A stretch of 33,725 bases of DNA from Candidatus Woesearchaeota archaeon. Its GTDB lineage: Archaea; Nanobdellota; Nanobdellia; Woesearchaeales; ARS49. Both the position numbers and the translations under genes were made by a program. Location: positions 1 to 33,725 of the forward strand of contig WJJS01000023.1 in the NCBI GenBank assembly GCA_014729505.1, in the 5' to 3' direction. The stretch's first letter is position 1; each line of letters begins with the position of its first letter. The notes under the pieces are model-generated. The model did no database searches and was not told the DNA's origin. It was given only the letters and a program-made list of their open reading frames with translations. Below, one piece after another: positions 1-29,411 of this stretch.

Positions 1-173
1 AAAAGATCTGTGAGCAGTACTCCGGCTCCTACTTTGCTTTTTTCTACTTCAATGCTGCGCTCTTGTCCCGCATTACTCAAAGAAACGTAAAAGAAGAGGA
101 GTAAGAATCCAAAACCTAGGATGCCGATGACGAGTACGAGTTCCAGTGGTCGTAGTGATTGTCCTTTTTTCAT
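1..173 (-). CDS. Partial (5' end only) pilin-like single-TM protein, MKKGQSLRPLELVLVIGILGFGFLLLFFYVSLSNAGQERSIEVEKSKVG...
   Basis: Open from the ATG at 173 through the window edge; KKG|Q followed by a hydrophobic helix; ATGA overlap with the upstream gene's stop (170-172). Not in the ORF track because it runs off the window. Confidence 0.7.
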   Translation of the reverse strand, partial: MKKGQSLRPLELVLVIGILGFGFLLLFFYVSLSNAGQERSIEVEKSKVGAGVLLTDL

Positions 174-586
174 GTTCTGCTGATAACCATGGTAAATGTG
201 TAATCCTTTGTTTTTTTCTCGCGAATATTGTGGACTATCGGTCCTCGTTCCAGCATGATCTCGAATAAGTCTTTATTGCTGTAGTAGGTGTTGTTACCGA
301 CTTGTACTCTCATTGCTATTTGCTTTTCTGAGTCAAACATGGCCGTTAATCGACTCGAGCTAATAGTGAGTTCTGGCCTGTCACTGTACGGGTCTGGTTG
401 TGTAAGTTCTTGTATTGCGCGTTGAAAGATGATTTCGCTTTGCAGACCATGTAATGTGCTGTGAACAGTGTACATGCTAACACCTAGGTAAGTAATTGCT
501 GAGAGGAGTACTGCAGCGATGCCAAAGTAAAAGAGCCACCACATGAGATTGGTTTGTCCTTTACGTGCTAACTCGTTGCGTGCCAT
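170..586 (-). CDS. Small membrane protein with class III signal-like N-terminus (MARNELARKG|QTNLMWWLFYFG...)
   Basis: ORF, ATGA coupling downstream, overlap with upstream gene, RKGQ + TM. Confidence 0.75.
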   Translation of the reverse strand: MARNELARKGQTNLMWWLFYFGIAAVLLSAITYLGVSMYTVHSTLHGLQSEIIFQRAIQELTQPDPYSDRPELTISSSRLTAMFDSEKQIAMRVQVGNNTYYSNKDLFEIMLERGPIVHNIREKKTKDYTFTMVISRT

Positions 587-1505
587 AGCGTATCACCCCC
601 TCGTGCAGTGCTTGTGCGATACGCGCGCCTGTTGTCTCAACGCCGGTTGTAGTGCCTACGTCGATAAGGACGCGTACCGCGTTACTCGTCAGTACTTCTC
701 TCATATCGTGTGGTTCTAGTGCTGCTGGATTTACCGGTATTATTGCTGCTCCTTCAATGGCAATGCTCTCATTTTGTAGTGCGGCGGTAACGCGGTTGAG
801 CAGCTCGCAGGCCAAATATTTGCTGTCCGCGATATGCTCATTTGCTGGAATGTATGCGCGGACAATATTGTCCGTTCCTGTGGCTCGTATTGCGAGCAGT
901 GGTTGTGTACTCTGCGTAGCAGTTGCGCTGTATAATTGTGCATTATTGGATCGCATTCTTGCTATGATTTCGGTCACTAGTGCTTGTTCGGTACTGTTAT
1001 GGGTCGTGTGTTCTTCAGTGTCTGCAAGAGCAAGTGTTGTCAGTGGTGTTGGATCTTTTCGTTGACATTCGCGCGCATAGCGATTAAAGGTTAATGGCGC
1101 TTTGCCAATCAGTATGTCGCTTCCTTGTTTTGCAAAGACGAGGGAGCTGTCCGTGAAGGTGCCTTCTCGTAAATGCAGGTCATTACTGCGTACAAATAGG
1201 TATTCTTCTGGACGGTCTTGTTGTGATACAGTCACTTTTTCTAGACTGACAGTTACAGTATAATTGTCTGGCGTGTAATAGTAAAAATAGGCATTGTCAT
1301 CAAAGAGTTGGAGGAGATCGATGTTTAAGCCTATTTCATTGACGAGTATTGTTTTTTCATAGAAATCTCCTTTGTTGATGAATCCGTAGATCACGCCCAT
1401 TCCTGTAAGGAGTATGAGTCCTCCGATAAACATGAATCCTGTAAGAACCCGCAGTATGTTGCGCTGTCCTGCTTCTGCTTGTGCAGTCCCTCGTTTGCCT
1501 AACAT
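561..1505 (-). CDS. Single-TM surface protein, KRG N-terminus, unknown function
   Basis: ORF of 314 aa; MLGKRGTAQ... then hydrophobic segment; overlaps neighbours in the same operon. Confidence 0.8.
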   Translation of the reverse strand: MLGKRGTAQAEAGQRNILRVLTGFMFIGGLILLTGMGVIYGFINKGDFYEKTILVNEIGLNIDLLQLFDDNAYFYYYTPDNYTVTVSLEKVTVSQQDRPEEYLFVRSNDLHLREGTFTDSSLVFAKQGSDILIGKAPLTFNRYARECQRKDPTPLTTLALADTEEHTTHNSTEQALVTEIIARMRSNNAQLYSATATQSTQPLLAIRATGTDNIVRAYIPANEHIADSKYLACELLNRVTAALQNESIAIEGAAIIPVNPAALEPHDMREVLTSNAVRVLIDVGTTTGVETTGARIAQALHEGVIRYGTQRVST

Positions 1506-2005
1506 TCACTTTCCTCTTTGGTCAGTGTGATTTCTTTGTCGCGATTCATGCAAAAATAGAATACTTCGGGTACGGGCACTTCGTTTGTCAAAACCAGTCG
1601 TTTGGTGAGTAAGGTTATTGGTTGTGCTAGACAAGGGTACGCACCGCAAGTAGTATGGATGTTTTCAAATGTTTCACAACGGTTAACGCGCCGATGTTCT
1701 GCGTCTGTGTACGTGTCATATAAACAAAGACAGGTCTTTGATCCGCAACTCTTTGGCCCGTGTGCGTTGCCTGCGTAGAGTCCTATCGTGTAATTGCTTC
1801 CTATTGTGCGTACAGGGATGGTATCGCCGGGTTGTAATGCGTTGAGTTCTATGACGTAGCGCTCGAAGTCTTGTTCTGCTTGTGATGGTTGGTTTGAAAG
1901 TGCCGGCGTGACGAGTTGTATGAGCAAATAAATGGCGCCAAGAAAGAGTACTGCGGCAAACATGAGCTCTATTGCTTTATTGATCACCATCCCTCTTTTG
2001 TTCAT
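1499..2005 (-). CDS. Single-TM surface protein, MNKRG N-terminus, Cys-containing
   Basis: 168 aa ORF; MNKRGMVINKAIELMFAAVLFLGAIYLLIQL; TATA box about 28 nt upstream (2029-2038). Confidence 0.8.
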   Translation of the reverse strand: MNKRGMVINKAIELMFAAVLFLGAIYLLIQLVTPALSNQPSQAEQDFERYVIELNALQPGDTIPVRTIGSNYTIGLYAGNAHGPKSCGSKTCLCLYDTYTDAEHRRVNRCETFENIHTTCGAYPCLAQPITLLTKRLVLTNEVPVPEVFYFCMNRDKEITLTKEESEC

Positions 2006-2038
2006 AGGTATGAAAAAGGTGCTGGCAATTTATAAAGG

Positions 2039-2347
2039 TTACCTGACGTCACAACAGACTTGTCCTTGTGTACAATCATCAAAATTACTGCCCGGTACGC
2101 GAACGTATCGTATGGATCCTTGGCGTAGATCGCTGCAACTGTCTGCACATTGTCGTTGTGTGCCAAAGACTTCGCATTTGTCGCCACTGAGTCCTCCTGC
2201 GCTTTCATTACCTACCGTATCGATAAAACCGAATGCTTTGCCGATCTGATCACGGAAAATAAATGCGAGGATCACAAGAACAAGTAATGCCAGTATTGCT
2301 TTTGTAAGATAGGATAGTTCGCCTCTTTTTCCTGCAAAAATATTCAT
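2039..2347 (-). CDS. Small single-TM protein with C-terminal Cys-rich domain (...DKCEVFGTQRQCADSCSD...FDDCTQGQVCCDVR)
   Basis: 102 aa ORF; GKRG + hydrophobic helix; C...C...C...C....CC pattern. Confidence 0.8.
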   Translation of the reverse strand: MNIFAGKRGELSYLTKAILALLVLVILAFIFRDQIGKAFGFIDTVGNESAGGLSGDKCEVFGTQRQCADSCSDLRQGSIRYVRVPGSNFDDCTQGQVCCDVR

Positions 2348-2420
2348 ATAATCATCAAGAGGTTTGTTTTATTTAAACCTTACCAAAACAATTATATAGA
2401 TTCTATTACAATAGTGCCTC

Positions 2421-3119
2421 ATGCAAAAGGGGAGAGTACACACTGTTATCTGGATTGGCGCTCTTGCTATTATCGTCGTCGCGTTACTCCTTTATTTGTT
2501 CTTGCCAACTGGAGTTGAGTACAGTGATGATCCTGTGGAGTGGGTTGATACGCATACTGATGGCGCCGTTGTTATTGATGTGGAGGAAGCGTCGCAGGGT
2601 GGCAGTTCATATTACGAGGGTCTTGCTAATCAGCGCGTTCCTGTGCAAGGCGGCGAAGTGACTGGTATTGCATACTTTGGTGCGTATAAGGGCCAGGTGT
2701 TTAACAAGAATGCTGTTGAAAATAGTGAGATTGTGATGCATATCGGTCCTGAATTGAATCCTCAAGACGGTGTTATTGATACTTTTGCAGTGGTGCAGTT
2801 TGATCCTGTTCTTACTCCTGGAACACTAGTTCCTGAAAAGCTGGTGATATATGTTGATCAGGACTGGGTGGATAGAGCAAGCAATCTCAATATTATTTGG
2901 GGTCCTGATGTTGCTAATATTGCAGGTATGAATCAGCGTCCGTTTAACTTCTCTACTGCTCAAAACGGTGTCTATATCGATAGTATTGATACAGATATTG
3001 AATGGACTTTAATGGTTGATGATCGTCCTCAGGGTCGCGTCTTTGTTGGTGATATTTCTAAAGAGGATCTTTTGAACACTGACGTGTTGTCTGATAAGAT
3101 TTTCTTGACACTGGTGTGA
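2421..3119 (+). CDS. Single-TM extracytoplasmic protein, unknown function
   Basis: 232 aa ORF, N-terminal TM, oriented opposite to the surrounding cluster. Confidence 0.75.
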   Translation: MQKGRVHTVIWIGALAIIVVALLLYLFLPTGVEYSDDPVEWVDTHTDGAVVIDVEEASQGGSSYYEGLANQRVPVQGGEVTGIAYFGAYKGQVFNKNAVENSEIVMHIGPELNPQDGVIDTFAVVQFDPVLTPGTLVPEKLVIYVDQDWVDRASNLNIIWGPDVANIAGMNQRPFNFSTAQNGVYIDSIDTDIEWTLMVDDRPQGRVFVGDISKEDLLNTDVLSDKIFLTLV

Positions 3120-3256
3120 GTTTTACAACAAGATAAAACAAGTCTTGTATCGCGATGATTCTCAATATTTTGTAGGGCCGCCAGTACAGTGTATCGTACA
3201 AGTGTGCACTATGCTTTTGACCAAATAAGAAAACATGTTTCGCAGCATTTGAGGCC

Positions 3257-5899
3257 TTAATGTGCAGGCCATTTCGTAAACGTGTTGATGTATGCTGTTG
3301 CTTTATACGCGGCATAATCTAGGGCTACGCTTGCCGCCGCTCCTACAAAGCATCCGGCAATGGGTACTGGAATGGCACATCCTGCGGATTGTAGAGCAAT
3401 GCCTCCCCCAATGTTGAGTATGAGCACGGTAAATTTCGCCACGGTTGGACCAATATTTGCTCCTTGATAACAGAAGTTGAGATTATTGTCGTCATTGAGT
3501 TCTGGATGTACTGTTAAGCATTGGACTGGCAATATTCCGTCCTTTCCGACGAGATTATCAAGAACGCCAGGTTCATTACAGATTCGGACTGCTTTTTCAA
3601 ATCGTTTGTCTCGTGTCGTTTCCTCGTTATTGATTGAAGCGGTATCAACAAAGGTTGGTCCGCCACCAAAATCAACAAGCGCATATCCCTCGTCTGGTGC
3701 GCTGCAACGACAATAATTGTTCGTGAGTTGGAGGTCTGCATAGCAGGGACTGGCAAGGAAGAGTCGTTGCAATCCTTGGTTCAGTGCTCCTCGACTAATA
3801 ACGTCTTGTCCGATGATGTCTCGTTGTAACATGAGGAATTTTGAGGTAGCTTGATCAGTGATGGGGTAGAAGACATTCGTAGTGTCTGTTGTCAGTGGTG
3901 TTTGAAATGGTCGGTGCATGCCAAACGTGTTGAGTCCTACTGCCATGAATTTCATGTTCGTACTGTCCATGAGGACTTGATGGTACGCTGCAGCAAACGC
4001 GATAACTCTTTTTGGATGTGTGGCCCAGCGTCCCAGGTTCCATGCAAGCGAGTATCGTTGCACTTCTGCTGCGATTTCTGGATGTGTCAACGCGAGCTCT
4101 GCTGCTTCGCTTGCTTGTCGTGCTTTACCTGCATTCATCATTGCCTGTGCCATGTCATCTCCGTAAGCGCTCGTTAACCGCCCTATAATTTCGCCTTCTT
4201 CTACGCCATTCTTGAGCAGCGTGTTAACAGCGTCAGCCGCTTCTTGTGTTTGGCGATTATTGAGTGCTTGGACGAGATCATCTCCTCCTCGACCTAGTTG
4301 TCGTACTTGTTGTACTGCTGCAGGATTTTCGATAAAGGGTTTGCTGAGTTTATCTGCTAAGAACCGATGTGCACTTGGCGCTTCTATGGCTTCTTCTGCG
4401 ATTTCTCTCATGACACTTGGAGGATACGCTTTTGGAATGTCGTCTGCGTGCTTGACGATGTCATCTGCTTGTGAAAACATTTTTTTGACGAGGTTAATTG
4501 AATCATCCGAGATCTTGAGCACTATTCTTCCGCTTTCAATAGTTGCAGAACTGATAGCGAGGACCAATGATCGTGCACGACCTCCTACTGAGGCGGCCAG
4601 TCGATATACTCGCAGTCCTGATATGATGCCTCCAGCACTTCGTGCTACTCTTCCAAGCACTCCTGCTGCAACTCGTTGACCTATTTTTCCCAAGAACCCT
4701 GCGCCTTTTGTTACAATACTCGCACCACTCAAAAATTTGGCAGTTTTGGCAACGGGTCCTGCAAACGCAAGAACGGCTCCTATCATCGCGGCGTTTGAGA
4801 AATATTTTTCTTGCAGATCGATCGTCCATGCTTCGTCTTCTCCGTGTGGGAAGCGTTCGTAGTAAAAAACATAAGTTGGATCGCCTTGTCCTCTAATATA
4901 CTCCTCCCACGGCCCTTCAAGTGTTTGTGGTAATTGGAAGTTGGTAACAGTGCATCGTTTTGATAATAATTGTTCTGGTGTTTGTGGTGCGTTGAGTATG
5001 GCGTCAAAAAGTCCTGTAGGTCCCATTGGACATTCATTTGAGTCTCTGCTAAGGTGTATTTCGTTTGTACCTCTATTGTCGCCGCATATCTGGAATGTTC
5101 CTTCTCCTTTTTTGAGAGGACATCCTATATCTCCTGCTCCTCCTTGATGCCATTCATAGTTTTCTGCAACGAGATTGAAGGTGCATTCCGGGCTTAAGGG
5201 TAGCGGAGGTATCCATGTGCCTGCAAGATCATCTCCTATGTCGCCGCTTGTGCGCAGTGCTTCGCGAAACTGCCATTCGGTTATAGGTTCTTTGAGTTCA
5301 TCCAAATGCACATAGGCGCACCATACATTGTTGAAATTGTTTTTTTCAAATTTCTGCCAACATTTTGTGGTGATTTCAACAAGGTCGTTGACATTTTCTA
5401 TGCCTATTGTTGGTGTCTCGAGTTGTGCACCAAAGCATTCTACTTGTGTCTCACCAAATTGTGCGCTTCCTTCAGAGTCACCACCGACAGTGATCGTACC
5501 GCGTCGCGCATTTTTTCCTAATCCTATTATTGCTCCTCCTGTCGGGCTTGTTAAGTTACTTTTATTGTCTGCAAGAAGTAGTGTGATATCTTGGTCAGGT
5601 TTAAATGCTTTATCGCCGTGAAATTTGCAGAGGTTTTGATCATTGAAATCCACGTCTCCTGTCGCGATGATATTAATGGCGCAGGTGAGTGCATTTACAG
5701 AATTGATCATTTTGACTTCGTCTTCGCTAAGCGTTCCTAATCCTGGCGGAACAAATGTTGCATTAGGCAAGGGTATGGGAACTCCTGCGATGTAGCGCCA
5801 CATATTTTGTCCTGTCTCTGTTCCGGCACTAAGGACTACTACGGTTAAGAGGCCTAGTATTAAGCTTACCACAAGCATACTCACACCTCTTTTGTTCAT
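3257..5899 (-). CDS. Large surface/membrane protein, MNKRG N-terminus, Cys-rich C-terminal region and hydrophobic/amphipathic segments
   Basis: 883 aa ORF in track (start 5908); start at MNKRGVSMLVVSLILGLLTVVVLS (5899) preferred because a TATA-like box lies about 28 nt upstream (5923-5932). Confidence 0.8.
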   Translation of the reverse strand: MNKRGVSMLVVSLILGLLTVVVLSAGTETGQNMWRYIAGVPIPLPNATFVPPGLGTLSEDEVKMINSVNALTCAINIIATGDVDFNDQNLCKFHGDKAFKPDQDITLLLADNKSNLTSPTGGAIIGLGKNARRGTITVGGDSEGSAQFGETQVECFGAQLETPTIGIENVNDLVEITTKCWQKFEKNNFNNVWCAYVHLDELKEPITEWQFREALRTSGDIGDDLAGTWIPPLPLSPECTFNLVAENYEWHQGGAGDIGCPLKKGEGTFQICGDNRGTNEIHLSRDSNECPMGPTGLFDAILNAPQTPEQLLSKRCTVTNFQLPQTLEGPWEEYIRGQGDPTYVFYYERFPHGEDEAWTIDLQEKYFSNAAMIGAVLAFAGPVAKTAKFLSGASIVTKGAGFLGKIGQRVAAGVLGRVARSAGGIISGLRVYRLAASVGGRARSLVLAISSATIESGRIVLKISDDSINLVKKMFSQADDIVKHADDIPKAYPPSVMREIAEEAIEAPSAHRFLADKLSKPFIENPAAVQQVRQLGRGGDDLVQALNNRQTQEAADAVNTLLKNGVEEGEIIGRLTSAYGDDMAQAMMNAGKARQASEAAELALTHPEIAAEVQRYSLAWNLGRWATHPKRVIAFAAAYHQVLMDSTNMKFMAVGLNTFGMHRPFQTPLTTDTTNVFYPITDQATSKFLMLQRDIIGQDVISRGALNQGLQRLFLASPCYADLQLTNNYCRCSAPDEGYALVDFGGGPTFVDTASINNEETTRDKRFEKAVRICNEPGVLDNLVGKDGILPVQCLTVHPELNDDNNLNFCYQGANIGPTVAKFTVLILNIGGGIALQSAGCAIPVPIAGCFVGAAASVALDYAAYKATAYINTFTKWPAH

Positions 5900-5930
5900 A
5901 CGTCGCATTATAGTGTAGTGATATTTATAA

Positions 5931-6116
5931 TTATCCGATCCCCAGATATCCTTCGATGATTTGAATAATACCTCTGTTACTCGTATTTGCTTGGATCATG
6001 AGCCAAATAAAGAAGAGTATTGCCATAAGGCCCAGGATTAATAAAATGACCTGCCACCATTCTGGTGCGCTGTAATCACCTTTTTTGTTTTTGATTATCC
6101 TATTTGTTGTAGACAT
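5931..6116 (-). CDS. 61-aa single-TM pilin-like protein
   Basis: MSTTNRIIKNKKGDYSAPEWWQVILLILGLMAILFFIW; overlaps the upstream 355-aa gene. Confidence 0.65.
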   Translation of the reverse strand: MSTTNRIIKNKKGDYSAPEWWQVILLILGLMAILFFIWLMIQANTSNRGIIQIIEGYLGIG

Positions 6117-7162
6117 TGTACGCGTATTCCTTGTTCACCATCTCCTCCGGCGATTGTTGCTGTGCCGAAGGGGTAGATGGAATCTTTTGCTGGTACAAGG
6201 ACGAGTCTGTTTGCTCGTTTGTTTTCCTCTGTACTTTCTTCATAGCCCAGGAGTTCTCCTACTTTGCCGATAACGCTTCTCGGCAGTGCAAATGCGTCCG
6301 CTCCCCATTCGTTCATGCGTGCAAACTCGACGGCGAAGGGTTCGTTTATCTTATAAGTATACTTAATGTTATTTTTTATGAGTGTGCTGCTTGTTTCTTT
6401 TTGTGTTTCATCAAGGACATATTCCCAATAGCTTTCCTCATCTCCAGGTCTGACCGGATGTGTTCGCATCCACGCAGCAAGCGACGTTATTTCTGTCTTT
6501 TCTACTTCTCTTGTTACATTTGGTGAGAACTTTACACGCGCGCAATAGATGCAGAATGTTGGCGGCCCATATGCAGTAAAAAGATTGAGAGAGGTTCCTG
6601 GTATGGTTCCTTTCGCATACTGTTGTACGGCCCATTTTTCCTGCTTTGAATAATCGTCTGGAGGATCGGAAATGCCAAAAAGGTCCCAATCAATCAGGTT
6701 CCACCATGAATCGAATAGCGGTAATTTTCCTTGTTGTACTTTTTGCCAGCAATTGCGCAGTTGATCTGCCATGATCTTGTTGAGTGCCCATTCATATTGT
6801 AGTTGTTCGTCAGTTGGATTGTTAAAAATCTTTGCTATCTCTTCCCATCGTGCGCGGTTCGGTCCTGCTAGTTGTCGTTGGATTTCAAGCATGTCATCTT
6901 CTGCATCATATTTTAATGCTTCAAGATCGGCCATGGTGACATTGACATATACTGTTTTGCATTCCGGTGGAACATCAAACATTCCTGCCGTTCCTAGTTT
7001 GGTGATGCCGATGAGTAGCGTGCTCCATTCGCATGCCACGTCTGGCGTGATGATACCAAGCCATGAAAGAATTAGATACACGAGCCATGCAAGCGCGAGT
7101 GTAGAGAGAGCGAGTATCGCCAGTCCGACGAGAAAATTCTGGATATTTGCGCGTTTACTCAT
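6095..7162 (-). CDS. Single-TM surface protein (355 aa), MSKRA N-terminus
   Basis: ORF; MSKRANIQNFLVGLAILALSTLALAWLVYLIL; ATGA overlap with the 39-aa ORF upstream. Confidence 0.8.
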   Translation of the reverse strand: MSKRANIQNFLVGLAILALSTLALAWLVYLILSWLGIITPDVACEWSTLLIGITKLGTAGMFDVPPECKTVYVNVTMADLEALKYDAEDDMLEIQRQLAGPNRARWEEIAKIFNNPTDEQLQYEWALNKIMADQLRNCWQKVQQGKLPLFDSWWNLIDWDLFGISDPPDDYSKQEKWAVQQYAKGTIPGTSLNLFTAYGPPTFCIYCARVKFSPNVTREVEKTEITSLAAWMRTHPVRPGDEESYWEYVLDETQKETSSTLIKNNIKYTYKINEPFAVEFARMNEWGADAFALPRSVIGKVGELLGYEESTEENKRANRLVLVPAKDSIYPFGTATIAGGDGEQGIRVQCLQQIG

Positions 7163-7278
7163 GATACATAGGGGGCTATGAGTCTGTTATAGGCGAGAAA
7201 TAATCCTACTACGATGAGTAATGAGATAATCAAGCCTAGGAGTATTTGTTGCCAAGAATACCCTACACCTCTTTTCAT
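7159..7278 (-). CDS. 39-aa single-TM micropeptide MKRGVGYSWQQILLGLIISLLIVVGLFLAYNRLIAPYVS (absent from ORF track)
   Basis: Manual translation; KRG motif plus one hydrophobic helix; stop overlaps the downstream start (ATGA); TATA (CCTTTTATAAA, 7299-7309) about 26 nt upstream of the ATG. Confidence 0.7.
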   Translation of the reverse strand: MKRGVGYSWQQILLGLIISLLIVVGLFLAYNRLIAPYVS

Positions 7279-7328
7279 ACTGTTTGTCGGTGAGATGATT
7301 TATAAAAGGTTTTCGTCCAGAATGGGGG

Positions 7329-7586
7329 TTATGAATTGTTATTGCTGGAAACGCCAATCTTAATGCAGCATTTGTTTGTTTCATTAGTACAGGTTCCAAC
7401 TGGTGAAGCGGTTTCTCCACTTGCACAAGCATTCTTACATGTTCCTCCTACTGTTTCACATGAATCTGCTGTTTCACCAAAGAGTCCTAGTTTTTGACCT
7501 ACTAAGAATGCGAGTATGACTAGAACAAGTATGGCAATAATAGCACCAACAATCTTTGATATTGCTATGTCCCCTTTTGTATTCAT
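7329..7586 (-). CDS. Small single-TM Cys-rich protein (MNTKGDIAISKIVGAIIAILVLVILAFLVG...DSCETVGGTCKNACASGE...CTNETNKCCIKIG)
   Basis: ORF; start at MNTKG gives ATGA coupling with the upstream gene. Confidence 0.8.
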   Translation of the reverse strand: MNTKGDIAISKIVGAIIAILVLVILAFLVGQKLGLFGETADSCETVGGTCKNACASGETASPVGTCTNETNKCCIKIGVSSNNNS

Positions 7587-7876
7587 CGTCCTTGACAACA
7601 CACGGTGCAGAATTGTTGTTCTTCTGGTTCTTTTTCTTGTTGTGTTCCATCGGTAAAGATGTTACGAGCTAGTGTGGGCCCTTCACACTGAACATCCTTT
7701 GGGCTTTCCCCTGCAGTATAGATTCCTTTGCATACGCCTTTTCGGGTTTCACAATTATCTGCTCCGGTAATACCCGCTAAATAATTGGCTACGAGAAACA
7801 CAATAATGACCATGATGGTTACTGCAATGATTGCTCCAACAATAACGTTCATTGCTTGTCCTTGTTTTCTTGTCAT
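7583..7876 (-). CDS. Small single-TM Cys-rich protein (MTRKQGQAMNVIVGAIIAVTIMVIIVFLV...DNCETRKGVCKG...FCTVCCQGR)
   Basis: Start at 7876 supported by the AGAGGGATC-ATG context; RKQG|Q; TATA-like ACCTTTTTAT (7911-7920). Confidence 0.8.
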   Translation of the reverse strand: MTRKQGQAMNVIVGAIIAVTIMVIIVFLVANYLAGITGADNCETRKGVCKGIYTAGESPKDVQCEGPTLARNIFTDGTQQEKEPEEQQFCTVCCQGR

Positions 7877-7965: not shown

Positions 7966-8436
7966 CTAGTACGCAGGCATTACGTATGATAACAGTTGCG
8001 GATCAGAGAGGAACCCTTCTTTTTTCAAATCTTCAATGATATAGTACACTTCTCGTTTTCGTATCGTGAATTTTTTGTCGAGCGCATCAAAAAAGTCTTC
8101 AAGTTCTTTAAGATCGTGAAAGATGGCTTCCACGAGGAAATCATAACCGTTATTGACTTTGCATAGCGAGTTCACGTTAAAGAACTTGACTAGTGCATCT
8201 TTGACTTTTTCTTTTTCTTGCTTGCCGACTTTGAGCAGTATGGAGACTTTTACGGAAAATCCAAGTTTTCCAAAATCAAGCAGGCTTACATGTTTTTGTA
8301 TCAGCGTTCCGTTTGCTTTTTTTAGCCGGTCAAAAATACTGCTGATGGGAATGCCTGTTTTCTTGCTTAGGTTTGTTAAACTCATGCGACTGTTTTGTCG
8401 CAGATAACTCATTAAGACCAAATCTTGCTTTTTCAT
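7966..8436 (-). CDS. Lrp/AsnC-like winged-HTH transcriptional regulator
   Basis: MKKQDLVLMSYLRQNSRMSLTNLSKKTGIPISSIFDRLKKAN... HTH followed by a RAM/AsnC-like C-terminal region. Confidence 0.7.
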   Translation of the reverse strand: MKKQDLVLMSYLRQNSRMSLTNLSKKTGIPISSIFDRLKKANGTLIQKHVSLLDFGKLGFSVKVSILLKVGKQEKEKVKDALVKFFNVNSLCKVNNGYDFLVEAIFHDLKELEDFFDALDKKFTIRKREVYYIIEDLKKEGFLSDPQLLSYVMPAY

Positions 8437-9054: not shown

Positions 9055-11550
9055 TTACAGTATTGGTTTTTTTCGATGTATGAAATGGTCTGCTATCAAG
9101 ATTGTCACGACGAGCACCACAAAGAGTACTAGCCACACAAGTAGTGACGTGCTTTTCTCAACTTCTTGTACCGTAAAAGTTTTGCTCGAGACTGCTTCAT
9201 GTGCGCCGTCATTTGCTAGTATTGTTATGCTATGATCTGTGGCGTTTCTGTCGATAGGCAGGTCATAGGAGGTTTTTTCTAGTTCGAGTCTCACGATGTG
9301 GGGTTCTCCAAAGTCTGCAGAATACATGACAGTATAGACGAGTTCGTCACCGTCTGGATCGTTTCCTTCCCATTCCAAGTGCACAACATCGTCAATAGCT
9401 TCGACAATACTGTAATCGTCAATTGCCAGCTCTACTTCTGGCGCGTTCTTTGAAAAGGTGACCGTATCAACGAGTCCCCTTGGTCCCTCAAGATCTACTT
9501 GTGCAGTGTCGTCATGCCATGGCACGAAATAGTTGAAGTCAATTTCTTCAAGGGAAACACCACCTATGTCAAATCGTTCGCTAAATCCGTAGCGGCCGAT
9601 TTCGTTTCCGGATTCATCGCGCAGCACTATCTGCCACTCTCCTTGTGATTCGTTTAAATCTATAAAGCCGTCGCGAACATATAATGGTAATAGCGATCCT
9701 TTACCGTCTTTTGTTATTGTTCCGCCTACGAGTAGGACTTCTGGATCTTGTTTTGTTTTCCAATAGTTGATCATGTGTACCCATGCGCATTGTGAGATTT
9801 CTCGTATATCGTTTCCAACGGTGCTTTTGCCAAGGATTGCTGGCGAGCGGAGTATAGTGGTAATAGTTTGTGGTGGTGCCAGACCTTCTTTGGTGTATGT
9901 TTCTATTTCTTGGGCAGTTGGTTGTCGGTACTCTTTGTTTCCGGTATCTTCATTTAATGAATGATCGCATTCTTCAGTGATGAGTGCTGGGTTCCAGTGC
10001 CATTCGCGATAGGTGGGGCCGGTAGTTTCCAATAGAAGCTTTAGAGCGTTGTAGCGATCCGTGATATCTCCTCGAGGAGCCATCATGACTACTTTTCTGT
10101 TGAGTGGTAGTAATAATTCTTCGCCGAACTCGTCGGTAAAATCCAGTTGCAGCAATTCCCATCCTGGAACAACGAGGATGATTCTATCGTATCCTCGACT
10201 GCCATATAGTTTGTTGGATCGCAACACTTCTTGACCTAGTTTTTGGGCAAGCTCGGGAAAATCATCATCTTCTGCTATGTGTTGCATGTAATACTCATTA
10301 CTATTCCATGCGACCATTTGAGCTCCGTCAACATAGGGAAATTCTTGTGGTAATGCAGTTCGTAGTCCTGCGGCTACTCCTCCTGCATCCATTCGTGCAG
10401 TGAGTGTTTGCGCTTCACTGCGATCTTTCAATTGTAATGGTCTTACAAGAACATATTCCCATCCTTTCACCTGTTGTGCTTTGCCAATTATTTTGCCTAG
10501 CACTGTGTGTTCTCCGTTAATTTCAGAATTGACACTGATTTCGTAATTTCCGGGTTTTGTAAAGGTAAATGTTGGAGGACTAATTGCGCTAGAGATCCTT
10601 ATTTCCCAATTTTTGGCTTCAGCAAGACAACGGTTCTTTTTTCCGTTTGTTCCGTTGAGTTGCAAAAAGGGTAGTTTTTGTGTTCCTGCAGTAAATGTTT
10701 TTGTATCATATCCTTGTTGTAATTCAAAGGTGACTGGTACAGAGCCTGTGTCGGGAAACGTGCTTTTTCCTCGAATAACAATAGTGTCTCTATCGCTTGG
10801 ATCTGTTTGATAGACTCCTTTCAGTTGTGTTTCTCTATTCACAACCATTGGCACGCCGATGTTATTGATAGTGTCAGTCACTCGACTGTATAGATTGCTG
10901 CCGGTTTCTTGATCATTGACCCATACTTTTTGATAGGGTTGAAAGTATACTTCAACATCGCTGATTTCGCATTCTGGTTCTGCTGGTGGCGCACAATAGC
11001 AGGGCGCATAATGGTTTGGACATGAGTATTCAAATGGATCGACACAATAACCATGTACGCATTCTTTGTCAGCAGGGCATTGTTGTGAAGTAAACATTTC
11101 ACGGATGTCTTCTCGCATAGAAGGATGTGTTTCAAGTATTGTTTCTACGTCGGGAATGCATTGCCATCCTGCACAAAAGGAACTTACTAATGGTCCTGGC
11201 AGTCCTTGATCGAAGTATAGTTCTGCGTATTCTGTGCTCGGGCTAAATCCTTTGCGCGCTGGATAAAAGTCAGGATCCTTGCATGTTGATCCTTCGTACG
11301 CTACAGAACCCATGATAGGTCTTAAGATATCTGCACAGTTGATGGCATATTCTGACGGTAGATTGTCCACGCCTGCGGGTAATTGTGGTGTGCCTATCCA
11401 TCGACAGCCGGGAATGATCAACGTGTTACCTCCTTCACATCTTCCATAGTACATCGTGGGTTCGTATACATAAGTATCGCCGTCTTCAAGTGTTGAACTT
11501 CCTGTTATGCGTGCAAAGACGGGTTGTAGGGGTTGAGTTGTGCTGTGCAA
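9055..11550 (-). CDS. Large secreted/surface protein with Cys-rich N-terminal part, Ig/FnIII-like C-terminal region and C-terminal TM anchor; likely the 3' part of a frameshifted gene
   Basis: 831 aa ORF whose start is a TTG with no signal peptide; C-terminal LVWLVLFVVLVVTILIADHFIHRKK. Confidence 0.8.
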   Translation of the reverse strand: MHSTTQPLQPVFARITGSSTLEDGDTYVYEPTMYYGRCEGGNTLIIPGCRWIGTPQLPAGVDNLPSEYAINCADILRPIMGSVAYEGSTCKDPDFYPARKGFSPSTEYAELYFDQGLPGPLVSSFCAGWQCIPDVETILETHPSMREDIREMFTSQQCPADKECVHGYCVDPFEYSCPNHYAPCYCAPPAEPECEISDVEVYFQPYQKVWVNDQETGSNLYSRVTDTINNIGVPMVVNRETQLKGVYQTDPSDRDTIVIRGKSTFPDTGSVPVTFELQQGYDTKTFTAGTQKLPFLQLNGTNGKKNRCLAEAKNWEIRISSAISPPTFTFTKPGNYEISVNSEINGEHTVLGKIIGKAQQVKGWEYVLVRPLQLKDRSEAQTLTARMDAGGVAAGLRTALPQEFPYVDGAQMVAWNSNEYYMQHIAEDDDFPELAQKLGQEVLRSNKLYGSRGYDRIILVVPGWELLQLDFTDEFGEELLLPLNRKVVMMAPRGDITDRYNALKLLLETTGPTYREWHWNPALITEECDHSLNEDTGNKEYRQPTAQEIETYTKEGLAPPQTITTILRSPAILGKSTVGNDIREISQCAWVHMINYWKTKQDPEVLLVGGTITKDGKGSLLPLYVRDGFIDLNESQGEWQIVLRDESGNEIGRYGFSERFDIGGVSLEEIDFNYFVPWHDDTAQVDLEGPRGLVDTVTFSKNAPEVELAIDDYSIVEAIDDVVHLEWEGNDPDGDELVYTVMYSADFGEPHIVRLELEKTSYDLPIDRNATDHSITILANDGAHEAVSSKTFTVQEVEKSTSLLVWLVLFVVLVVTILIADHFIHRKKPIL

Positions 11551-11876
11551 TCTTGTTGAAAACTGAGTACTTCTCTGGTTTGATACTCAAGTGAAGGTCT
11601 GTTTGTGTATTTTACAAATTTTGTTCCGGAATCTGCACTGAATGTTCCTGAAGCTTGTGCGGTGTCAAAATCCACTTCCGCTGTAAAAGTTACATCGAGA
11701 ACGTCATCTGTTGAAACAATGTGTTGAGGACATACTGGCGCGCTTCCGTCAGGACAGATGCTTGGATCTTCTGGTGCCGGCGGGCAAGTAATATCGTGCA
11801 GCGGTAACGTAGAATCAAGTGGGTCGGCAAAAATAAGTGTCGCACAAACGATAATAAAGATGACGATTTTATGCAT
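11505..11876 (-). CDS. Signal peptide-bearing 5' part of the above gene (MHKIVIFIIVCATLIFADP...)
   Basis: 123 aa ORF; overlaps the 831-aa ORF by 46 nt in another frame. Confidence 0.65.
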   Translation of the reverse strand: MHKIVIFIIVCATLIFADPLDSTLPLHDITCPPAPEDPSICPDGSAPVCPQHIVSTDDVLDVTFTAEVDFDTAQASGTFSADSGTKFVKYTNRPSLEYQTREVLSFQQDCTAQLNPYNPSLHA

Positions 11877-13832: not shown

Positions 13833-14420
13833 TTACACTATAAAACTACAGCCATCAGAATGTAAGAGCAATCCAACACTTGCGTCTGTTATCGTGATAA
13901 CCTTTGTAAATTGTGGCCATAAAGTGCTGAGATCGATCCATGCCTGCGTGGATGCATCCCATGACCACGCGTGCAGGTTAGTGCAGGCAGCTAGTGAAGG
14001 TTGTGGGGCTACCTTTCCATCATAAAAGGTGTGCGCACCTATAACTTCCCACCCTTTGCCCACATTCAGATTTTGGATATTATTTGCGATGGGTACTTCA
14101 TACTCGAGCGTGGAATCTTGAGTAACGTAGAGAAATCCTGTTTTGTGTATGACGTCTGCTGGCTGCAAATTTCCTATTTGTGTTGTATTAAAAGTTGGAT
14201 ACACTTGTGCCCATTGCTGGTTTTGGTGATGAAATACCCATAGTGATCCTGCATCGGTAACGTCAAAGGTTCCCCCTACTTGTTGGCTGAGGTCAAGTAG
14301 TCCTGCCACGAGGTTCCATCCTTTGTGCAGATCCACGGTAACAGTGTAGATATCGCCAACTGGCGCAATCACTGCTGTAGTGAGAAGAATGAGTGGTAAT
14401 AGTAGTAGTAGTCGTTTCAT
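13833..14420 (-). CDS. Secreted 'GWN' repeat protein, paralog 1
   Basis: Signal peptide; KGWNLVAGLLDLSQQVGGTF and KGWEVIGAHTFYDG repeats. Confidence 0.8.
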   Translation of the reverse strand: MKRLLLLLPLILLTTAVIAPVGDIYTVTVDLHKGWNLVAGLLDLSQQVGGTFDVTDAGSLWVFHHQNQQWAQVYPTFNTTQIGNLQPADVIHKTGFLYVTQDSTLEYEVPIANNIQNLNVGKGWEVIGAHTFYDGKVAPQPSLAACTNLHAWSWDASTQAWIDLSTLWPQFTKVITITDASVGLLLHSDGCSFIV

Positions 14421-15118
14421 GGAAATGGTGGCGGCATCATGATTCCTGAGGGCGTCCCTGCAGCACTGTTACTATAGACACATCCTTGCGGGTCATAGAG
14501 GAGTATTCCGGGCCATGCTTCGCCAAGTGTGAGCGGCAGATTCAATGCAGGTATAAAGGCAGTGAGTTCAAACCATTGTGCTGTTTGTCCTTGCACGCCT
14601 ATGGTATCATATGCCCATATGCGAAGGGCAGGGCATTGTGCGAATGCAGTGGCAATGGGTACTTGATCGTGAAAGAGTTGAAGACTGTTTAAGGACCAAA
14701 ACCCTGGTAATGAAGAGAACTGATTAATATTGGCATATACTGGTACTTCATAGTTTAGTGTACCGTCTGTATCACTGTAGATCATTGTCGGCAGGTGTGC
14801 GACCATGTCGAAATCTAGCAGTCCAAGAGTGTTCATGTCAAAGTTCGGATATACTTCTGCCCATCCTGTGCTGCCCGTCGGTCCTGCGCCGGACATGAGA
14901 ATATATATCGAGTGTATATTTGCTGGTTGTAGTGTTCCTCCGACGAGTTGACTCATATCACTGAAGTGATCGATATAATTCCATCCTTGGTAGATATCTG
15001 CGGTGACGAGATACGAGGATTGTGCTGGTGTTGTCGGCGCACCGAATTGTGCGTTTACGCAAGCTAGTGTTAAGAGCACCAGCGCGAGTGTAAGTATTCT
15101 TTTCATTGTAATGTGCAA
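14417..15118 (-). CDS. Secreted 'GWN' repeat protein, paralog 2
   Basis: Signal peptide; QGWNYIDHFSDMSQLVGGTL and LPGFWSLNSLQLFHDQ repeats; ATGA overlap with paralog 1. Confidence 0.8.
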   Translation of the reverse strand: MHITMKRILTLALVLLTLACVNAQFGAPTTPAQSSYLVTADIYQGWNYIDHFSDMSQLVGGTLQPANIHSIYILMSGAGPTGSTGWAEVYPNFDMNTLGLLDFDMVAHLPTMIYSDTDGTLNYEVPVYANINQFSSLPGFWSLNSLQLFHDQVPIATAFAQCPALRIWAYDTIGVQGQTAQWFELTAFIPALNLPLTLGEAWPGILLYDPQGCVYSNSAAGTPSGIMMPPPFP

Positions 15119-16116
15119 TCTCCGTCAATTAATAATACGTAGACTCGTTGCCAATCGTATGGATCTGATGGTACGTAGTTGACAAGTGCTGGATTGTTCA
15201 TCCAATCCTGACTTGCTGCATTCCATTCCCAGACTTCGCTGCCGCCTGCGGCAATCACGCAGTTTCCAAGGTGATTTGCAAGGTTTTCTCCAACATCAGT
15301 AAATGGTGCCATGGTGAGTACGTTCCATCCGTTGTACAGTGGTATGCCTGTGATGCTTTGTGGTACGGTCATTTCATAGTCAAGATAGCCGTCAGTATTG
15401 GAATAGACCCAGAATCCGTTTGCATCCGAGTATGGAGGTAATGATGACATCGTCGGATTGAACACGTAATCTTGTAGTTTCGCATCCCATCCTATAGCGT
15501 CTTGTACAAAGTCACCTGCGGTGATGGTGCCGGTGTTTAACGTTTGATAGGGAAGATCCCAGTATCCTGCAACGAGGTTCCATCCTGCGTAGATTTTTGC
15601 GTCATCCACATTTTGACTATACACGTTGATCACTCCGCTTGAACTTGGAGGTGGCGTAGTAGTGGTCGTTGTAGTAATTGGTCCTGGCGTCACAGTACTG
15701 GTTCCTGCGCATTCAACGTACATTTCTCGGTATAATCCGCTAATTGATTGATCGCAAGGAACAGACACCGAACAAGCAGGGCACGTGTGACAGGAATGGT
15801 ATCTGGTACTACATGCGCCTGTTTGCGGAGGCCCGTTGCAGTATACTCCTGACTCGTCTCCACTAGAACTGCTCGTTGTCGCAGCGGTAGGATGATATTG
15901 TAAACATACTCCGTTGCCGGGTTCCGTGTATCCTACACAGGTTCCTCCTGCTTTTTTGCAGACTTCATCTCCGCTGTCTTCGCTTGCGTCTGTCGAGGTG
16001 ACGACATAATAGGTTTTCCCGTTGTATATCACCGGACTTGAAAGTGCTAGAGCCAGGGGTATTGTAGTTAGGAGTAGAAGGACGAGTATCGAGTAGAGTA
16101 AGGATAATTGTTTCAA
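15103..16116 (-). CDS. Secreted 'GWN' repeat protein, paralog 3, with N-terminal Cys-rich module and Thr-rich linker
   Basis: Signal peptide; VCKKAGGTCVGYTEPGNGVCLQ; TTTTTTTPPPSSS linker; AGWNLVAGYWDLPYQTLNTGTI and NGWNVLTMAPFTD repeats. Confidence 0.8.
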   Translation of the reverse strand: MKQLSLLYSILVLLLLTTIPLALALSSPVIYNGKTYYVVTSTDASEDSGDEVCKKAGGTCVGYTEPGNGVCLQYHPTAATTSSSSGDESGVYCNGPPQTGACSTRYHSCHTCPACSVSVPCDQSISGLYREMYVECAGTSTVTPGPITTTTTTTPPPSSSGVINVYSQNVDDAKIYAGWNLVAGYWDLPYQTLNTGTITAGDFVQDAIGWDAKLQDYVFNPTMSSLPPYSDANGFWVYSNTDGYLDYEMTVPQSITGIPLYNGWNVLTMAPFTDVGENLANHLGNCVIAAGGSEVWEWNAASQDWMNNPALVNYVPSDPYDWQRVYVLLIDGDCTLQ

Positions 16117-16790: not shown

Positions 16791-17778
16791 TTCGGATCTT
16801 GCAAATGATATTCATGCTGTTTTGTTTTCTGTAGGTGAGCGTATGCTCATTGAAGAGCTTGCAAAGATAGTTAAAGAATCGGATGTTGATCGTGTTCGTC
16901 AGGTACTTGTGCGCATGAAAGAGGAGATGGATGCGCAAAACGGTCCTCTTATGTTGCTTATCGACGGCGAGGAAGTAAAGTTGACCGTGCGCAGTAAGTT
17001 TATGAATCTCGTCCAAAAGGTCGTCCGCCATGCCGAGATTCCAAAATCCATTGTTGAAACTCTTGCAGTGGTCGCGTATAAATCTCCTATTTTGCAGTCT
17101 GATATTATTAAGATTCGCACGAATAAAGCGTATGATCATCTTAAGGAGCTTGAAGAAAAGGGGTATATCAGTAGAGAGAAGTACGGTCGCACCAAACTTG
17201 TCAAGGTTACGCCTAAGTTTTTTGAGTATTTTGAGATTTCTCCAGAAGAACTGCAAAGAAAATTTGATGAGGCTAAGGTGACTGAAGTTGGAGAACAGCA
17301 GGAAAAAATTACGACGGTGACAAACAAGGTCGGTGATTTGCAGGTGTATGGTAAGGCGGAGTTAGAACAACACTCGGTTACTCCGTATGGCACGCGCAAA
17401 ACACAAGAGACTGAAAAGAGCGGTTTGGATCTGGCTAAAGAAGTGTCTGACTCAGAGCCTGAACCGCCAATTTCTGATAGCTCAAACAATGATAACAAGG
17501 AGTTAGACGATCTTGAAGCAAAACTGGACGACAAGGAACCTGAAAAGGAATCTAAGAGCGATGAGAAAAAAGGGCATGATGAGAAAAAGCTTCCAGAAAA
17601 TGAAAAAAAGGAAATGGTTCCAAAAGATAAACCGCCAAAAAAGAAAAAGAAGTCTCAAGAATCAGATCAGCCTTATGAACCTCCTGAAGTGGAAGGTGGT
17701 TTTACAGAATATAGTGAAAAGGAAAAGGAACAAATTAAGGAGCGAGCTCACGACTTGACGCACGAGGAAGAAGACTAG
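16765..17778 (+). CDS. scpB: Segregation and condensation protein B with long charged C-terminal tail
   Basis: VGERMLIEELAKI..., AEIPKSIVETLAVVAYKSPILQSDIIKIR..., LKELEEKGYISREKYGRTKLVKVTPKFFEYFEI typical of ScpB. Confidence 0.88.
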   Translation: MGTHSDRTDSDLANDIHAVLFSVGERMLIEELAKIVKESDVDRVRQVLVRMKEEMDAQNGPLMLLIDGEEVKLTVRSKFMNLVQKVVRHAEIPKSIVETLAVVAYKSPILQSDIIKIRTNKAYDHLKELEEKGYISREKYGRTKLVKVTPKFFEYFEISPEELQRKFDEAKVTEVGEQQEKITTVTNKVGDLQVYGKAELEQHSVTPYGTRKTQETEKSGLDLAKEVSDSEPEPPISDSSNNDNKELDDLEAKLDDKEPEKESKSDEKKGHDEKKLPENEKKEMVPKDKPPKKKKKSQESDQPYEPPEVEGGFTEYSEKEKEQIKERAHDLTHEEED

Positions 17779-17816
17779 CGAACATTTTATATACTTTTTG
17801 CAAGCTCATTTTTTAG

Positions 17817-20261
17817 ATGGAAACAAAAGAGAAGATAGTTGAAAAAGTCATTGATGACGAGATGAAACAGGCCTATTTAGGCTATTCAATGTCTGTGATT
17901 GTTTCTCGTGCACTGCCCGACGTCAAGGACGGGTTAAAACCGGTGCATAGGCGTATCTTATACGCTATGTTTTCTGAAGGTTTGCTTCATAACAAGAAAT
18001 TTTCAAAATGTGCTGGTGTTGTTGGTGAAGTGCTAAAAAAATATCATCCTCATGGTGATTCTTCTGTGTATGATGCTCTTGTGCGTCTTGCGCAGCCGTG
18101 GAATTTGCGCTATCCTTTGATTCAGGGACAGGGTAATTTCGGATCTATGGATGGTGATTCTGCTGCTGCGTATCGTTATACGGAATCACGTCTCAAAAAG
18201 ATTGCTGAGGAAATGCTTGCGGATATTGACAAGGATACTGTTGAATTTGTTGAAAACTTTGATGGAACAACGACTGAACCGTTGTATCTTCCTGCAAAAA
18301 TTCCTAATTTGCTGATTAATGGCAGCAGTGGTATTGCTGTTGGTATGGCAACAAATATGCCCCCTCATAATTTGTCTGAAGTCTGTGATGGTGCTGTCAA
18401 ACTTATTGATGATCCTGATTTGAGTGTTAAGGAGTTAATGAAGACTATTAAAGGTCCTGATTTTCCTACCGGTGCAATTATTGCTGTTAGCGAGGGCTTA
18501 GTTGAGGCCTACGAGACGGGAAAAGGTAAGATTACTCTTCGTGCAAAGTATGAGGTTGAAGAAAAAAAGAAGAAAACAAAGATCATTATTTCTGAAGTGC
18601 CTTATCAGGTCAATCCTTTGAAATTGCAAGAGGAGATTGCTGAATTGGTCCGTGAGAAAAAAATCACAGGCATTAGTAATGTTCGTGACGAGACCGGCCG
18701 TAATCAGAAGGGTTTGCGCTTGGTTATTGAACTGAAGAGCGCTGCAAACGCTGACGTGATTATGAATCAATTGTTTAAGCATACTCGTTTGCAGGATTCA
18801 TTTAGTATTAATGCGCTTGCTTTAGTCGACGGACAACCAAAAGTGTTGAATCTCAAGCAGATTGTGCAGTTGTTTATCGATCATCGCAAAGAAGTAATTA
18901 CTCGTCGTACGAAATATGAGTTGAAACAGGCAGAGGATCGCGCGCACATTCTGGAAGGTTTGATAATTGCTCTTGATCATATCGATGAGATTATTGAATT
19001 TTTGAAAAAATCAAAGTCTGCAAAGGAGGCCAAGGAGGGTTTGATGAGCGATTACAAACTCTCGGATAAACAGGCTCAGGCTATTCTTGATATGCGTTTA
19101 CAGCGATTGACCGGCCTTGAGCAAGAGAAAATTCGTCAAGAATATACTGATGTTAAAAAGCTCATTGAGAAACTCAAGGGTATTCTTGCCTCTGCACAAA
19201 AAGTGCTTGATATTATTAAGAAGGAACTCGAAGATATTAAAGCATCGTATGGCGATGAACGCCGTACACAGATTCTTAAGGGCAGTGTTGAAAAATTTGA
19301 TATTGAGGAATTGATTAAGCCCGAGGATATGGTTATCACGATTACTCATGCAGGATATATCAAGCGCATTGGTGTCGACGAGTATAAGCAGCAGCGTCGA
19401 GGCGGCAAGGGCGTTATTGGTGCTGAGACTAAGGAATCTGATTTTCTTGAAAAGATTTTTGTTGCTAATACTCATGATTATGTGCTCTTCTTTACCAGTC
19501 TTGGCAAAGTGCATTGGGTTAAAGTGTATGAGATTCCTGAGGCAAAGCGGTATGCTAAGGGAACACCTCTTGTCAATCTCATTCCTCTCGGTCAGGGGGA
19601 AAATATTGCGGCGTATATCCCTGTGAGTGTGTTTGAAGAGGATGTCTTTTTGCTTTTTGCAACACAGAGGGGATATGTGAAAAAGACTGCGTTAAGTCAT
19701 TTCTCTAAACCTCGTAAGGGTGGTATTCGTGCTTTGACTATTCCTCTTGATGATCGTCTTATTGCTGTGCTTCCTATCGTTGCCGGTCAGGAAGTGTTTT
19801 TGGCAACATCAAAGGGTCAGGCTATTCGCTTTAAGGAAAGTGATGTGCGACCCATGGGTCGTGCAGCTCGGGGAGTTATTGGTATTAAGCTAAAGCAGGA
19901 CGATCATGTTGTTGGCGCAACTGTTGTGGATCATGATGAAACGATTTTAACGGTTACAAAGAAGGGTTATGGTAAGCGTACGAGTCCTAAGGAGTATCGT
20001 TCGATTAATCGGGGTGGTGTTGGCGTAATCAATATCAAAGTTACGGATAAGAACGGCCCTGTGATTTGTGTGCGCAGTGTCAAGCCTAAGGATCAGATCA
20101 TGCTGATTACACAAAAGGGAACGGTGATCCGCACAAGAGTCAAAGAAATTTCTGTAATTGGTCGAAACACCCAAGGTGTGCGAACGATTCGTTTGCAGGA
20201 TGATCGCGTTGTTGATTGTGCGCGTATTGTAGAAGATGAAAGCGCTGAGCCTGACAAATAA
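17817..20261 (+). CDS. gyrA: DNA gyrase subunit A
   Basis: [44 protein letters not shown] active-site region; GyrA box QRRGGKG. Confidence 0.97.
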
Positions 20262-25748: not shown

Positions 25749-26504
25749 ATGAAACTCGTACTCGCAGATCCAAAACATTTCAAGGACAGTATTACTGTTA
25801 TTTCTGAGCTGGTAAATGAAGCTCGTTTTAAGATTACTAAGGAGGGCGTTGATCTCGTCGCTATGGATCCTGCCAATGTTGCTATGGTGACATTTAAGCT
25901 GTTGTCGAGCGCGTTTACGCTCTACGAATTGGAAAAGGATACCGAGATTTGCGTGAATCTTTCAAATCTCAAGCAGGTTTTGCGTCGTGCAAAGGCAAAT
26001 GATATGTTAACGCTTGAACTTCCTGAGGAGGGGACTTTGCGCATTACGTTAAAATCGAACAGTAAGAGAACGTTCAACATTCCTTTAATCGATCTTGAGG
26101 ATCGCGAGCAAAAGGTTCCTAACTTGACGTTTCCGCTTAGTATCTCGACGACCTCTGCTATTCTCAATGATGCTATTGAAGATGCGAGTATTGTTGCTGA
26201 ATCGGTGAGTTTTGTTTCTGATCCTGAAAAATTCACGATTGAAGGTACTGGCGATCTTTCTAAAGCGCTTATCGAGATTAAGGCAGATAATGATCAAACG
26301 AAGATCAAGACTGATACGACGGCAAATGTTCGTTCAAAATATTCCATTGAGTACTTGAAGAAGATGATGAATGGTGCAAAACTCGCCGACACTGTCGACG
26401 TGTATTTTAGTCAGGATTATCCGTTAAAGCTCGAGTACAAGGTTATTGATCGTTTGCAGTTGAGTTTTATTCTGGCTCCTCGAGTCGAGACTGACCGTCC
26501 ATAA
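25749..26504 (+). CDS. pcn: DNA polymerase sliding clamp (PCNA)
   Basis: FKDSITVISELVNEARFKITKEGVDLVAMDPANVAMVTFKL; C-terminal YPLKLEYKV...LSFILAPRVE. Confidence 0.96.
   Translation: MKLVLADPKHFKDSITVISELVNEARFKITKEGVDLVAMDPANVAMVTFKLLSSAFTLYELEKDTEICVNLSNLKQVLRRAKANDMLTLELPEEGTLRITLKSNSKRTFNIPLIDLEDREQKVPNLTFPLSISTTSAILNDAIEDASIVAESVSFVSDPEKFTIEGTGDLSKALIEIKADNDQTKIKTDTTANVRSKYSIEYLKKMMNGAKLADTVDVYFSQDYPLKLEYKVIDRLQLSFILAPRVETDRP

Positions 26505-27535: not shown

Positions 27536-29411
<1,876 letters not shown>

Follow-up and report, generated by a model that had tools for sequence, protein, structure and literature searches.

The DNA analysed here, referred to throughout as the window, corresponds to a complete contig (C20, 33,725 bp) of a Candidatus Woesearchaeota archaeon, whose genome is assembled as 1.05 Mb in 34 contigs. 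At one end of the window (positions 3 to 7876) lies an array of eleven open reading frames (ORFs), all on the minus strand, each encoding a short basic leader that ends in G or A and is followed by an N-terminal hydrophobic helix. These ORFs account for all eleven N-termini from which an earlier reading of the sequence (the original prediction) had proposed a pilin-like surface locus; its description of the products as small membrane proteins holds for most of them, the exceptions being P7, P9 and P3. P7 carries additional hydrophobic stretches besides its N-terminal helix, and the other ten ORFs have one helix each. From the transcription start, the order is P11, P10, P8b, P9, P8, P7, P5, P4, P3, P2 and P1, and adjoining genes often overlap, by 4 to 26 nucleotides (nt), with an ATGA overlap at P1/P2, P8b/P9 and P10/P11.

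Specifically, the first gene of the operon is probably that of an Lrp/AsnC-like helix-turn-helix (HTH) regulator (7966..8436, minus strand; family assigned by sequence reading), and in five related loci (L122, L123, L124, L127 and L138) an ORF with a similar HTH stands ahead of the small pilins. It is followed by P11 (7583..7876, 97 amino acids (aa), TRKQG/QAMNVIVGAIIA, where the slash marks the end of the leader) and P10 (7329..7586, 85 aa, NTKG/DIAISKIVGAIIAILVLV), two small six-Cys proteins which are candidate major pilins. P8b (7159..7278, 39 aa, MKRG/VGYSWQQILLGLIISLLIVV), a class III-like mini protein, overlaps by 4 nt the putative core minor pilin P9 (6095..7162, 355 aa, six Cys, SKRA/NIQNFLVGL), and a second mini class III-like protein, P8 (5931..6116, 61 aa, NKKG/DYSAPEWWQVILLILG), precedes P7 (3257..5899, 880 aa, 18 Cys, NKRG/VSMLVVSLILGLL), a predicted giant pilin-anchored extracellular protein and candidate tip adhesin. 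P5 (2039..2347, 102 aa, AGKRG/ELSYLTKAILALLVLV) is again a small six-Cys pilin-like protein, and was aligned with P10 and P11 in one family (alignment A7). The remaining members are the class III-like putative minor pilins P4 (1499..2005, 168 aa, eight Cys, NKRG/MVINKAIEL; orthologues in L030, L032 and L033) and P3 (561..1505, 314 aa, GKRG/TAQAEAG followed by a transmembrane (TM) helix; orthologues in L027 and L030), and the class III-like pilins P2 (170..586, 138 aa, LARKG/QTNLMWWLFYFGI; orthologue in L033) and P1 (3..173, MKKG/QSLRPLELVLVIGIL), which is truncated at its 3' end by the border of the contig. Between P5 and P7, on the plus strand, stands a twelfth single-TM gene, P6 (2421..3119, 232 aa), which encodes a membrane-anchored beta-domain protein with a predicted N-in orientation. 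The extracellular parts of the array pilins are rich in Cys, that of P6 is not.

The array extends beyond window position 1. At this end, the window has exactly 141 bp in common with the beginning of contig C21, and a second exact overlap of 141 bp connects the far end of C21 to the beginning of C30 (joins at window 1/L057 1 and at L057 13333/L004 1); among the stretches examined, both overlaps were confined to those contig ends. Exact overlaps of this kind fit an assembly interrupted by a de Bruijn graph assembler. The P1 reading frame runs through the overlap and ends at C21:382, where a further gene, P0 (303 aa, MKQG/KIEFNAYLLIFVGLIL), begins with a 4-nt overlap. C21 completes the operon with the rest of P1, this one additional pilin-like gene and then an RPA/SSB-like gene (1702-2682); an 81-aa membrane protein is encoded between P0 and the latter, and beyond it stand the genes of a YdjM-family membrane protein and of a RadA-like protein. 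In four relatives (L028, L030, L031 and L033) the genes run in the same order, from P5-P4-P3-P2-P1 through a larger protein to RPA, mostly with YdjM, and this confirms the C20–C21 join.

The genes for pilus assembly, which the original prediction had suspected elsewhere, were found on other contigs of this genome. A single ATPase of family PF00437 is encoded on C30 (63.8 bits); its NCBIfam matches, to TadA-like (4e-30) and FlaI (3e-29) proteins, are both below those families' own cut-offs, and on these matches it is assigned to the TadA/FlaI/VirB11 group. The gene adjoins that of the only PF00482 platform protein, of the TadC/PilC type (26.1 bits for the whole protein, cut-off 25.2; both genes at C30:13565-18191), and after joining of the contigs the pair is separated from the pilin operon by about 26 kb. 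In relatives, the distance between RPA and the ATPase is about 26–29 kb on one contig in genomes G011 and G020, and 90–180 kb in G016 and G005. A single A24 prepilin peptidase, with visible TD and GGGD motifs, is encoded on C7 (at about 17238-18074), with its profile match at C7:17250-17564 (PF01478, 50.3 bits, cut-off 26.5). The peptidase was found in 54 of 57 relatives and the ATPase in 342 of the 353 genomes of the order. Since the ATPase is nearly universal, finding it together with P6 is uninformative, and this co-occurrence was set aside.

Two further observations concern the surroundings of these genes. Near the ATPase, C30 encodes three polytopic membrane proteins (L005:94-1274, L004:19527-19973, minus strand), a relative of one of which stands upstream of PilB in L159, and the three may be components of the assembly platform that have escaped recognition. 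Downstream of the array, two large polytopic proteins are encoded at L057:7874-10739 (plus strand), the first with a PMT_2 glycosyltransferase match; they also follow the pilin locus in L029, and may glycosylate pilins.

The same genome holds a second pilin-like cluster on contig C13 (22746-31529, L167), with four to five class III-like genes (KQG/VQSVFTWIFILLAGG, KKG/QIEIMGLLLIILL and others) adjoining the gene of a 1657-aa surface protein. Its QFNW-type member is conserved in many relatives, and there the cluster adjoins the RPA-linked array. A few single pilin-like genes were also found. It is therefore probable that a single machine serves several sets of pilins, as has been proposed for archaea generally (PMC4858521).

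To compare the array with the rest of the genome, we applied a loose rule, scoring [KR][GA] at most 18 aa before the first helix. The locus set comprised the eleven ORFs of standard length, with P6 included and the 39-aa P8b excluded, and the background consisted of single- and double-pass N-terminal-TM ORFs from about 370 kb of the same genome (23 sampled stretches and the rest of the window). The motif was present in 11/11 locus ORFs and in 19/72 background ORFs (Fisher p = 7e-5, with the locus entered conservatively as 10/11). In P11 the rule picked an upstream KRG, since the natural site, RKQG, is not [KR]G; several of the 19 positive background ORFs carry lipoprotein or Sec signals. These counts speak against the motif being equally common on the membrane proteins of this genome, which the original prediction had named as grounds for abandoning it. 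In addition, the leader motif is kept where orthologues are only 20–30% identical: it was found in 27/29 orthologues of P9 versus 7/21 of P6 (p = 1e-5).

Scanning with a P7 profile retrieved 26 named loci in Woesearchaeota, Nanoarchaeota and Aenigmatarchaeota. In the Aenigmatarchaeota locus L159, one run of genes comprises PilB (1e-154), PilC (1.5e-88), a pilin-like gene, a P7 relative and six pilin-like genes, and in L143, on the complete chromosome CP070804.1, PilC is followed by a P7 relative, and this by about seven pilin-like genes. The gene order of these two loci is the strongest evidence that P7 and the small proteins belong to a pilus machine. A full array, ending at RPA, is also present on the complete chromosome of archaeon GW2011_AR15 (L153).

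Within the order, the P9 profile matched 224 of 353 genomes and the P6 profile 37 (E <= 0.001), 34 of them strongly. We surveyed the region upstream of RPA in 20 genomes without a strong P6 match, in 18 of which RPA could be scored: at least three motif genes lay upstream of RPA in 17 of the 18, and the survey as a whole counted 171 motif genes in 236 kb upstream versus 3 in 77 kb downstream. A recurring plan was seen in many relatives, consisting of an HTH regulator, small pilins (KKA/QGLPITVIIIAALG and the like), P9, a mini protein (about 50 aa), a protein at the P7 position with a length of about 200 aa, P5, four to five pilin-like genes and RPA; a small counterpart of P8 between P7 and P9 is likewise found in many of them. 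The array is conserved at this RPA-adjacent chromosomal spot across many families, in most of the genomes checked in the order. The 880-aa P7 with P6 looks like an accessory version of this core array, and N-terminal sequence similarity hints that the proteins of about 200 aa could be homologous to P7.

As regards the individual components, one conserved helix (KKGQ-LSINTII-A-IALxVLVVLIxIF) is common to the small pilins, most of which have six Cys, including a C-terminal CC. P10 shows beta-defensin-like Cys spacing (PF00711, 22.8 bits, cut-off 21), and the best PDB match of the family profile, which matches defensins and not pilins, is the big defensin 2rng (E = 0.022). The spacing of the Cys residues differs between relatives, and we treat this likeness as a lead which could be due to chance, as short Cys-rich sequences score easily. 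P9 has four invariant Cys. The relatives of P7 range from about 400 to 1900 aa and share the motifs GDPxYxxYYExFPxGE, SPC and WPxH, in a layout of two conserved Cys-containing parts separated by a variable helical middle, with a hydrophobic C-terminal helix pair ending in WPxH. The structural model of P6 consists of a TM helix and a beta domain (predicted local distance difference test, pLDDT, 86), for which a fold search returned no PDB match at E <= 0.001, just weak FN3/Ig-like ones. P6 orthologues adjoin P7 in the loci compared. P6 was rejected as a pilin, given the motif in just 7 of its 21 orthologues and the cytosolic N-terminal extensions that some of them carry; it is more likely an anchored partner of P7 than a cleaved pilin.

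All together, these data make it very likely, in our judgement, that the array is an operon for the structural subunits of an archaeal type IV pilus system which has diverged strongly. Assembly from class III-type signals into a type IV pilus-like structure, as the original prediction had it, is the best-supported reading, built on gene content, motif enrichment, single-copy machinery, synteny with that machinery in a second phylum and conservation of the array across the order. Several results weigh against it. The ATPase and platform genes of this genome lie outside the pilin operon. PF04021, the class III signal profile, found nothing at E <= 1 anywhere in the genome, and none of the array members passed the cut-off of a class III or pilin model in Pfam. 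More broadly, when the members and the profiles A1–A3 and A7 were searched against Pfam, NCBIfam and PDB, no pilin match reached cut-off; the sole Flp-type match in the locus, of P5 to a Flp1-like Pfam model, reached 17.6 bits and is below the cut-off of 33.5, and the best PDB match of the P7 profile is the N-helix of geopilin (E = 0.035). The motif is absent from 10 of 35 P7 orthologues (present in 25), and the P7 structural model is of low confidence (pLDDT 47), being used for rough architecture only. NCBIfam matches to enoyl-CoA hydratase and RND proteins, far below cut-off, were dismissed.

The missing profile matches would also be expected if the array encoded ordinary Sec-inserted single-pass surface proteins, the basic residues of which just set a positive-inside topology with no pilin processing. 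The motif is a weak pattern, found before the helix in 26% of the other N-terminal-TM proteins of the genome, and P6, in the same array, fits such a picture. With P6 as an internal control, the motif is enriched in the locus and conserved in highly diverged orthologues; together with the operon shared with PilB/PilC in Aenigmatarchaeota and the matching single-copy peptidase and assembly machine in the genome, this makes simple Sec insertion very improbable. A different question is whether the same machinery and signals build an extended pilus at all, or a short membrane-bound, envelope-spanning complex of the pseudopilus or bindosome type, serving secretion or binding. The many different class III-like proteins, several of them large (P7, P9 and P3), the class III signals on archaeal substrate-binding proteins and proteases (PMC2910488) and the one ATPase common to several gene sets of the genome, including the C13 cluster, would all suit such a complex. 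The small six-Cys subunits, abundant, often in tandem and with a strongly conserved helix, resemble instead polymerising major pilins, and the proteins of the locus include no recognised secretin or substrate-binding family; we consider a short complex unlikely.

The RPA-like SSB gene directly downstream in most of the relatives checked, and the RadA-like gene close by on C21, could point to a Tad/T4-like pilus that mainly imports DNA, as a conjugation or DNA-uptake apparatus, and DNA import by DPANN pili has already been proposed (PMC9563170). RPA and RadA are, however, housekeeping genes that stand beside further housekeeping genes (ribosomal S2-like and others), and function does not follow from neighbourhood alone. 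Neither ComEC nor a nuclease was seen in the array, no search having been aimed at them, and we hold such an apparatus to be distinctly improbable. The most speculative proposal is that of a DPANN-specific attack or attachment filament, with defensin-like, disulfide-knotted heads of tiny pilins along the shaft and, at the tip, P7, a protein with a helical insert and a hydrophobic C-terminal hairpin that would insert into the membrane of the partner cell, so that the pilus would be membrane-active and not just adhesive; we regard it as a long shot and give it very little credence.

For the preferred reading, a diverged type IV pilus, the mechanism can be sketched from the components found here and from what is established for archaeal type IV pili (PMC4858521, PMC4371748). 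From this we infer cleavage, filament formation, a division into shaft, tip and adhesin, and attachment. The single A24 peptidase would cut the short basic leader after G or A, leaving the hydrophobic helix at the N-terminus, after which the PilB-type ATPase and the TadC/PilC-type platform would pull the helices out of the membrane and assemble them as a thin filament. Its shaft is likely built from small six-Cys proteins, P10 and P11 and perhaps P5, and P9, P4, P3, P2, P1 and P0 may be minor pilins acting in initiation or at the tip. P7 would most likely be the tip adhesin, with P6 as its membrane-anchored assembly partner. The system probably serves to attach the cell to another one, and binding of a partner appears its likeliest use, as suggested by the analogous case of ultrasmall bacterial episymbionts (PMC12206443) and by earlier proposals for DPANN.

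Beyond the array, the window contains other genes for putative surface proteins. At 9055-11876 (minus strand), two ORFs overlap in different frames, one of 831 aa with a TM anchor at its C-terminus and one of 123 aa that starts with a Sec-type signal; they look like parts of a single large secreted surface protein, interrupted by a frameshift that may be real or a sequencing error. Three neighbouring secreted proteins (13833-16116, minus strand) have in common a repeated motif of the GWNLVAG/GWNYIDH type, and are probably tandem paralogues of a surface protein. Sequence reading also recognised bacterial-type GroES/GroEL (27536-29411, plus strand) and a gyrase A-like protein (17817-20261, plus strand), which were likely acquired; a PCNA-like gene lies near them, at 25749-26504.

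Proteins of this kind have been noticed before. Makarova, Wolf and Koonin (2019, PMC6393860, Fig. 2A) outlined DPANN 'dark matter' islands in which unannotated signal-peptide proteins were read as diverse pilins, with a secretion ATPase and TadC nearby, so that the reading of such genes as pilins is already published and the original description of the system as undescribed holds in part. The Aenigmatarchaeota loci L159 and L143 fit these islands directly. In the order of the window, by contrast, the array stands beside RPA and not with the ATPase and TadC, and is conserved there across many families; it also carries the P7–P6 module and six-Cys mini-pilins. None of these features appears to be described in that paper. 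Within the open-access papers searched, what seems new is the RPA-linked position of the array across the order, its size, the six-Cys mini-pilins and the P7–P6 module.

Among characterised systems, the Epd pili of Methanococcus maripaludis, processed by EppA (clade 1 archaeal type IV pili; PMC4858521, PMC4371748), are similar in their pilins of about 70–100 aa, KG/Q or RA/Q sites, several minor pilins and pilin genes located away from the assembly genes; the window locus differs in lacking a PF04021 match and any recognised DUF2341 adhesin, and in its Cys-rich heads and single A24 peptidase of ordinary size. Haloferax volcanii PilA pili are likewise encoded apart from pilB/pilC and have a conserved H-domain common to the major pilins, but the H-domain sequence is another one, and the window operon holds far more minor-pilin-like proteins. 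With bacterial Tad/Flp pili the system shares a TadA-like ATPase, a TadB/TadC-type platform, very short pilins and the weak, below-cut-off Flp1-like match of P5, whereas no TadE/F pseudopilins, RcpA secretin or TadZ were recognised here. The type IV pili with which Saccharibacteria, ultrasmall episymbionts, bind their hosts (PMC12206443) are bacterial and offer a functional analogy only.

In conclusion, DPANN genomes often have pilus assembly genes with no recognisable pilins. A 2022 study of Nanohaloarchaeota found no annotated pilins beside the Tad genes (PMC9563170), and the census of archaeal type IV pili scarcely covers DPANN (PMC4858521). The RPA-linked array may explain where DPANN pilins hide. 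For the whole order, pilin candidates can be found by position, upstream of RPA/SSB, despite sequence drift beyond the reach of ordinary searches, and our data suggest that many interchangeable sets of pilins depend on one ATPase and one platform. The proteins of the array are candidates for the filaments by which presumed DPANN symbionts touch their partners.

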